Source: Desulfurivibrio alkaliphilus AHT 2 (lineage in GTDB: Bacteria; Desulfobacterota; Desulfobulbia; Desulfobulbales; Desulfurivibrionaceae). From it: a stretch of DNA of 64,000 nt. Both the position numbers and the translations under genes were made by a program. The notes under the pieces are model-generated. The model did not search any database, was not told the DNA's origin, and was given only the letters and a program-made list of their open reading frames with translations. The stretch lies in contig NC_014216.1 of NCBI RefSeq assembly GCF_000092205.1, forward strand, positions 2,733,742 through 2,797,741, given 5' to 3'. This document shows positions 58,996 through 60,532 of the stretch, one piece after another (positions within the stretch are counted from its first letter, which is position 1; every line of letters starts with the position of its first letter).

Positions 58996-59025
58996 TTGAC
59001 AGCATTTGTTTATATTGCCTATGCT
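58996..59025 (+). promoter_or_regulatory. Putative sigma-70-type promoter of the cytochrome gene
   Basis: TTGACA (58996-59001), an 18-base spacer and TATGCT (59020-59025). It would give an unusually long leader of about 215 nt before the ATG at 59249. That AT-rich leader shows no gene and has GAGAGGAGA just before the start. Confidence 0.55.
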
Positions 59026-59248
59026 GATCAATGTGGCATGGCCGCATGGCAATTTTTAATTCCTGCCTGCGACAATTTGTCACTTTTCACGGTGAGCTGG
59101 AAGGTGCTAAATGTTCACCAAGTGATACTTAGGTGTGATGTTCTTATTCTTTCAACCAAAACATAAGCAGATCAAGGAGGTGGTGAACAGCAAAAAATGA
59201 CAATTAACAGGGGGTAATATGCATCTAAATCTAGAGAGGAGAAAATCG

Positions 59249-60481
59249 ATGAAGCACTGGATGATTGCTTTGGTCGTAGCCGCCCTTGCCCTGCCGGGCA
59301 TGGCGTTTGCCGGCCAGAAAGCCACCACCATTGATGAGCTGGCGCAGATGTTCGATGCCTCGCGCTGCAAGGCTTGTCATGGTGAAATTTACAGACAGTG
59401 GGAAACTTCCCACCACGCCCGACCGCTGATGGGGGTGCACGGCGGCCTTAAAGATACCCCGCTGGCCATGGCCGGGGCCACTCCCTGGTCGCCGGAGCAC
59501 CCTTCCGAGGCCACCCTGGAAACCTTTCCCTGTTTCAAATGCCACCTGCCCCAGGCCCTGACCCATGCCGAGGATTCGGTGGCGGCGGAGTATGCCCAGG
59601 CGCTGCTGGATCAGGATCGGCGCAAAATCGGTCAGCTTAAAATTACCTGTATCGTCTGTCATAATCACCGGGCGATCATCCACCGCCTGCAGGAAGGCGA
59701 GCCCGAGCCCAACGTGCTCTACGGCACCCGGGATATTCCCAACCATCCCGATCCGGTCTTTACCGAGATCCGCCAGAGCCCGGTGATGAAAGAGCCGCTG
59801 TACTGCGGCCAGTGCCATGGGGTCGGGGTCAACCTGGAGTTTGGCAACCCGGTGCAGTGCGCCACCCTGTACGGCAGCTATCAGCACGCCTACATTCCCG
59901 CCGGCGGCACCCAGAGCTGCCAGGACTGCCACCTCTATCCCAAAAAGGACGGCTTCGCCGATCATCGGATGCTGCCGGACTGGAATGATACCGAGTTGAT
60001 GAGCCAGCGCCTGGCTGAGTCGCTTTCGCTCAACATGCAGGCCATGGGCTATGAGTGGCTGCGGGCCGGCGGCGATCGCCCCAACCGGCTGGTAATCGAA
60101 ACCAAAATCGATTCCAAGGCCGGGCACCGGATTCCCGACGGCTGACCGTCTCACAACCGAGTGGTCCTGGAAGTGACCGCAAAAGATCTGGACGGAAAGC
60201 TGATTGCCAATGATACCCGCCACTACCATCCCCAGGCGACCACCCAGCGGGGGGCCAACGTGATGGTTTACGGCGCGCAATGGAAGGCGAGCTACGTGCG
60301 CGACACCAGCATTCAGCCCTTCCGCACCAAGGAGGAAACCTTCGAGTTCCTGCTGCCGGAAGGCACCCGCTGTGCCGACGTGGAAGTGGAGTTACGCTAC
60401 GAACTGGGTAATCCCAATCAGATTATCCCCATTCATAAACGCACCAAACGGGTAACTCTCGACCGCTGCCCGCCCCTGTAA
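59249..60481 (+). CDS. Five-heme c-type cytochrome with predicted selenocysteine (ExtKL-like)
   Basis: 410 codons if TGA at 60143-60145 is read as selenocysteine (position 299). A signal peptide (1-21, ending GMAFA) precedes five CxxCH heme motifs: CKACH (40), CFKCH (95), CIVCH (134), CGQCH (186) and CQDCH (224). The reading frame continues past the TGA without shift (GHRIPDG, TGA, then PSHNRVVLEV) for 111 residues to TAA at 60479. The sequence is conserved-looking on both sides. A candidate SECIS follows. ExtKL-type cytochromes are linked to extracellular electron transfer; I recall family members with this UGA, but the assignment here is from sequence pattern. Without UGA readthrough the protein would stop at 298. 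Confidence 0.8.
60143..60180 (+). promoter_or_regulatory. Candidate SECIS element after the in-frame UGA
   Basis: The UGA is followed by a possible stem-loop with TCAC (60151-60154) paired to GTGA (60173-60176) and GGTC (60163-60166) in the loop, 17 bases after the UGA. A loop guanine-rich motif at this distance is typical of bacterial SECIS hairpins. The stem is short, so the assignment is tentative. Confidence 0.5.
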
Positions 60482-60483
60482 TT

Positions 60484-60532
60484 GTTAAACGAACGCTGGC
60501 GCCGCATCTTGCGGCACCAGCGTTCGTTTAAC
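60484..60532. repeat. Rep1 miniature hairpin, copy G
   Basis: A 49-bp stem-loop: arms GTTAAACGAACGCTGG and CCAGCGTTCGTTTAAC are perfectly complementary and enclose GCCGCATCTTGCGGC-like core bases that match the inner Rep1 hairpin. It starts two bases after the cytochrome stop and lies between convergent genes. It may stop transcription, though no T-run is obvious. Confidence 0.75.

Follow-up and report, generated by a model that had tools for sequence, protein, structure and literature searches.

The window analyzed here, a stretch of 64,000 nucleotides from Desulfurivibrio alkaliphilus AHT 2, contains a gene for a multiheme cytochrome with a TGA codon inside its reading frame. This raises the question of whether the cytochrome ends at this codon or continues through a selenocysteine (Sec), as the original prediction from the DNA proposed for a five-heme cytochrome. 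Based on computation, which covered the protein family, the Sec site, the decoding machinery, a selected hairpin and an uninterrupted fold, we consider it almost certain that the gene encodes a selenoprotein. The selenocysteine call is correct, and the kind of protein was already known: it was proposed in 2007, was named ExtKL by 2018, and has a solved structure.

The 2007 study proposed the selenoprotein nature of ExtKL/MccSep-type cytochromes, but still allowed for a conserved operon instead; SECIS elements were not found, and non-Sec homologues were unknown for the ExtKL-type family (PMC1914089). The SECIS and the non-Sec homologues described below address both of these gaps. Subsequently, gsu2937-2936 of Geobacter was described as extKL, encoding a cytochrome with five hemes and a proposed selenocysteine, and preliminary work ties Geobacter ExtKL to selenite reduction (PMC5877670). 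The ExtKL selenoprotein is also tabulated in PMC13188914. The comparison with Geobacter ExtK and ExtL as a similar split gene, which accompanied the original prediction, is right according to this description and to the equivalog match reported here.

A single reading frame across the TGA codon

The gene occupies one frame at 59249-60481 on the forward strand, comprising 410 codons with a lone in-frame TGA at codon 299 (60143-60145) and a TAA at the end, and it is preceded by a ribosome-binding site, AGAGGAG, at 59235-59241. Downstream of the TGA, the same frame runs on for 111 residues, as had been claimed. Translation table 11 gives two ORFs of 308 and 106 amino acids instead of one gene, which is the split that had been anticipated from an automatic caller. 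Relative to its counterpart in Desulfurivibrio sp. AMeS2 (L020, 96% identical), there are 84 synonymous and 13 nonsynonymous differences in the 298 codons before the TGA, and 21 synonymous and 4 nonsynonymous differences in the 111 codons after it. Because synonymous differences dominate both before and after the TGA, the earlier description of a frame with unbroken coding character holds. In a comparison with the more distant L021, selection was likewise unchanged at the TGA. As judged from these sequence comparisons, purifying selection is alike on both sides of the codon.

A probable signal peptide of the Sec (secretion) pathway, MKHWMIALVVAALALPGMAFA, is read at the start of the frame (59249-59311, forward strand), suggesting that the protein is periplasmic. 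The neighbors of the gene are a MoaA-like (radical SAM) gene upstream on the opposite strand and a BadF/BadG-like gene that converges on it from downstream. Based on these two flanking genes, the Geobacter ext cluster, with its porin and rhodanese genes and its further genes for multiheme cytochromes, is not beside the window gene, and there was no common partner gene among the few neighbors sampled in relatives.

Between the convergent genes, just past the stop codon, lies a long inverted repeat (60484-60532), whose stem can be seen in the sequence and in the alignment that a chance hit to Rfam produced. It is near-perfect, about 22 bp long with a short loop and no clear T run, and is possibly a transcription end. 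Upstream of the gene, within 58996-59047, a hairpin that resembles a terminator and has a run of T comes directly behind a sigma-70-like promoter (TTGACA-18-TATGCT); this arrangement may be due to chance or possibly represents a leader with attenuation.

Family membership, hemes and fold

In a profile search, the translation matched NF040886, "multiheme c-type cytochrome (seleno)protein ExtKL", with 483.5 bits, compared to a curated equivalog cut-off of 250 bits. The match extends over residues 17-404, and thus across the TGA, and spans positions 24-422 of the 423 positions of the profile. The protein possesses the five CXXCH motifs and the Sec or Cys in a PDG-U motif expected of this family. 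Geobacter sulfurreducens ExtKL (GSU2937-GSU2936) is similar in having five CXXCH motifs and an in-frame TGA proposed as Sec, in being split into two ORFs by gene callers, and in being covered by NF040886 over both halves. By contrast, the Geobacter gene lies within the extHIJKLMNOPQS cluster, whereas the window gene stands alone.

The best match in the PDB was MccSep, a multiheme cytochrome c selenoprotein (9wt8, 9wta and 9wtb; E 8.4e-66 or better). MccSep is a divergent member; its sequence matches the window protein over most of its length and carries Sec at the equivalent position, with U325 of 9wt8 aligned to codon 299 (GHSIPDG-U-P in 9wt8, GHRIPDG-U-P in the window protein). The 9wt8 entry was deposited as a selenoprotein, with a continuous chain and a nonstandard residue at the Sec site, and 9wt9 is the U325A mutant of MccSep. 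The collection of papers searched contained none on MccSep, and 9wt8 was absent from the matches of our fold search, the library for which ends in April 2026.

All five heme motifs are invariant in the 41 aligned members: CKACH (C40-H44, 59366-59380), CFKCH (C95-H99, 59531-59545), CIVCH (C134-H138, 59648-59662), CGQCH (C186-H190, 59804-59818) and CQDCH (C224-H228, 59918-59932), all on the forward strand. Beyond these motifs, only H56, H239 and H293 are invariant histidines among the same members, which would leave up to two hemes lacking a conserved histidine in the position of the second ligand. Sec299 follows H293 by six residues. Outside the heme motifs, Cys204 (59858-59860, forward strand) is found in every one of the 51 members, also where Sec is absent.

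An AlphaFold2 model built from 41 sequences reached a mean pLDDT of 83.5 and replaced a model from three sequences (pLDDT 46). It contains a C-terminal, Ig-like beta-sandwich domain encoded by 60014-60460 (forward strand), with strands predicted at residues 259-269 and 279-289 before residue 299, and from 304-312 to 392-403 after it. Since strands of the sandwich flank residue 299 on both sides, the two ORFs are predicted to form one domain. The closest fold in the library was the penta-heme cytochrome c552 of Thermochromatium tepidum (5ze8; Z 22.3, rmsd 3.6 over 315 residues, model residues 17-402). The two proteins share the overall fold at 22% identity, but T. tepidum c552 has Ala where the window protein has Sec.

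Residue 299 among homologues

Homologues were sampled as 51 members read from 395 genomes of the phylum and two named contigs. One of these is a fragment that ends before the Sec site; among the remaining 50, the site is TGA in 44, Cys in four, Ile in one and Val in one. The alignment called for in the original prediction thus yielded U or C in all but two homologues, which have an aliphatic residue. On a tree, Sec and Cys must have interchanged independently three times or more, and there was one change to Ile/Val, in a paralogue arranged in tandem with a Cys copy in G027; Cys is the commonest replacement of Sec. The Cys-coding homologues are single fused frames. Across the order, 96 of 258 genomes contain an NF040886 match above the cut-off, nearly all of these matches having exactly one TGA and seven having no stop at all.

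Some genomes contain two copies of the gene. Tandem ExtKL paralogues are found in L053 (G027) and L041/L071 (G203), where Ile or Val replaces Sec and PDS replaces PDG in one copy, and the adjacent copy carries Cys in G027 and is truncated in G203. G289 and G327 (L055, L054) each contain the family in two forms, one with Sec and one with Cys, which are neighbors in the tree. The Cys copy of G289 carries an in-frame TAA and may be broken.

A conserved hairpin downstream of the UGA

The candidate bacterial SECIS lies at 60161-60180 on the forward strand. In its core stem, GGUC (60163-60166) pairs with GACC (60175-60178), enclosing an 8-base loop, CUGGAAGU, in which GG occupies 60169-60170; the stem may be extended outward by pairing of 60161-60162 with 60179-60180. 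The 5' arm begins 17 bases past the TGA, roughly where a SECIS had been predicted, but GGTC forms this arm and is not in the loop as had been proposed. A hairpin with GGTC in its loop was considered, given that the formate dehydrogenase genes of this genome carry GGUCU in the loop at a nearly equal distance. It was rejected because most wobble positions ahead of GGTC vary freely, whereas those of the downstream GTGACC are fixed.

We compared, without gaps, the DNA after the TGA from 71 distinct Sec genes with a null distribution obtained from 500 trials of synonymous recoding according to the codon usage of each gene. All four core pairs were present in 63 of the 71 genes and missing as a complete set in eight, compared to a mean of 10.1 genes (sd 3.0, maximum 19) under recoding. 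Sliding the 3' arm by 1-9 bases in either direction left pairing in only 0-3 of the 71 genes. Third codon positions are variable from codon 300 to about codon 303 and then nearly fixed in GUG GUC CUG GAN GUG ACC. Here the wobble bases were, in order, G in 71/71 genes (39% expected from codon usage), C in 60/71 (34%), G in 69/71 (51%), G in 66/71 (28%) and C in 61/71 (55%). In two genes (L064 and L065), a C-G pair of the stem is swapped for G-C, and the Cys, Ile and Val homologues have no GGUC/GACC stem.

With pairing far above the recoding null, specific to its position and lost in the Cys, Ile and Val homologues, the sequences argue that the GGUC/GACC hairpin is real and probably guides Sec decoding. 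Folding of the single sequence, suggested earlier as a check, gave no unusual stability for the 48 or 73 bases after the TGA (z -0.19 and -0.93), and a search of Rfam returned chance matches only. The case for the SECIS therefore rests on the comparison, in which the hairpin is under strong selection.

Selenocysteine machinery and other selenoprotein genes

A selenocysteine at codon 299 had been said to require the Sec machinery elsewhere in the genome, and this machinery was found in its entirety. The genome, searched as one contig of 3,097,763 bases, contains selA, selD, selB (over the family cut-off) and a tRNA-Sec with the anticodon TCA (UCA in the tRNA). Machinery, a conserved TGA with Cys homologues and, by comparison, a SECIS hairpin, as expected of a bacterial selenoprotein, are present.

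The selD gene (L018, genome 2436357-2437286, minus strand) has an in-frame TGA near its start, in MAHKLTSTVKAAG-U-AAK..., and on this reading is itself a selenoprotein gene. Its UGA is followed by a strong GGUCC/GGACC hairpin similar to the GGUC/GACC hairpin of ExtKL. Four formate-dehydrogenase-type genes have a TGA at the CARxUH motif, the usual Sec motif: L100 (genome 1635058-1638039, as QARIUH), L101 (3055587-3056315), L102 (2328326-2329060) and L103 (983346-984080). The hairpins of these genes are fdhF-like, with GGUCU or AGUCU in the loop.

Discussion

The observations at this locus are very probably best explained by a periplasmic pentaheme cytochrome of the ExtKL/MccSep type in which UGA 299 is decoded by means of a SECIS, from which we infer electron transfer and a role for Sec. 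According to this mechanism, SelB and tRNA-Sec would decode UGA 299 as directed by the SECIS hairpin, and the pentaheme cytochrome would transfer electrons in the periplasm. Sec299 would adjoin the heme held by H293, where it might help to bind or reduce a substrate, perhaps an oxyanion of selenium, tellurium or sulfur.

The output of translation table 11 corresponds to a different view, in which a cytochrome ends at the TGA and a separate protein of approximately 106 residues starts from GTG at 60161; the conserved operon left open as an alternative in 2007 (PMC1914089) is in line with it. However, the start of this second ORF would fall inside the SECIS hairpin and a predicted beta-strand, and strands of the modeled beta-sandwich both precede and follow the stop. 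In addition, the Cys homologues are fused, and the chain of 9wt8 is continuous with Sec at the site. We therefore regard two genes as very improbable. A single premature stop can also be produced by a sequencing error or in a pseudogene, but independent genomes throughout the phylum share the TGA (44 of the 50 homologues sampled first), and it is bordered by purifying selection on both sides. Judging by the homologous sequences, this explanation is already refuted, and its probability is negligible. Near-cognate read-through, in which UGA would be read as another amino acid, is exceedingly improbable considering the complete Sec machinery of the genome, the replacement of Sec most commonly by Cys, which arose at least three times, the retention of the hairpin in UGA-bearing genes only, and the Sec at the site in the solved relative 9wt8.

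Given a true selenoprotein, the function of Sec299 is a separate matter. From the sequence, a specific catalytic role beside the heme, in the reduction or binding of a substrate, is possible but rather doubtful. That Sec is noncatalytic, and instead ligates a heme, has a structural function or forms a redox switch with Cys204, is a serious possibility somewhat short of an even chance, and rivals the proposed role only. It is in agreement with the invariance of Cys204 in 51 of 51 members, with up to two hemes being without a conserved His ligand, with the persistence of a tandem paralogue that has Ile or Val at the site, and with the Ala of T. tepidum c552 at the aligned position. On the other hand, the repeated replacement of Sec by Cys suggests that its chemistry is kept. 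We considered a Sec299-Cys204 pair, but Cys204 is retained in members that have lost Sec, and a fixed pair is thus not supported. Through the naturally occurring variants with Cys, Ile or Val, the role of selenium can be tested.

Speculatively, and with low probability, the family SECIS could be a single ancestral element of unusual shape (GGUC/GACC stem, 8-base loop, GG some 23 bases past the UGA, and a bulged U on the 3' side), unlike the fdhF-type hairpins of this genome, and might constitute a second class of SECIS for one and the same SelB. In the same proposal, Cys204 and Sec299 at an open-site heme would form a selenium-assisted reductase center unlike known heme enzymes.

Selenocysteine in cytochromes is rare. 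The present analysis makes small additions to what was known, namely the conserved SECIS, the naturally occurring variants with Cys, Ile or Val, and a likely reason for the split gene of a cable bacterium. Where C-terminal halves of such proteins are annotated as separate small genes, they should be joined before modeling. The small pentaheme cytochromes (sPHC) of cable bacteria are ExtKL homologues, encoded in one genome by what was described as two genes, and are listed among the cytochromes with pentacoordinated hemes; the relation of their fold to T. tepidum c552 was seen there as well, and selenocysteine is unmentioned (PMC11976967). Our analysis suggests that this "two-gene" sPHC is one selenoprotein with an unrecognized Sec codon.
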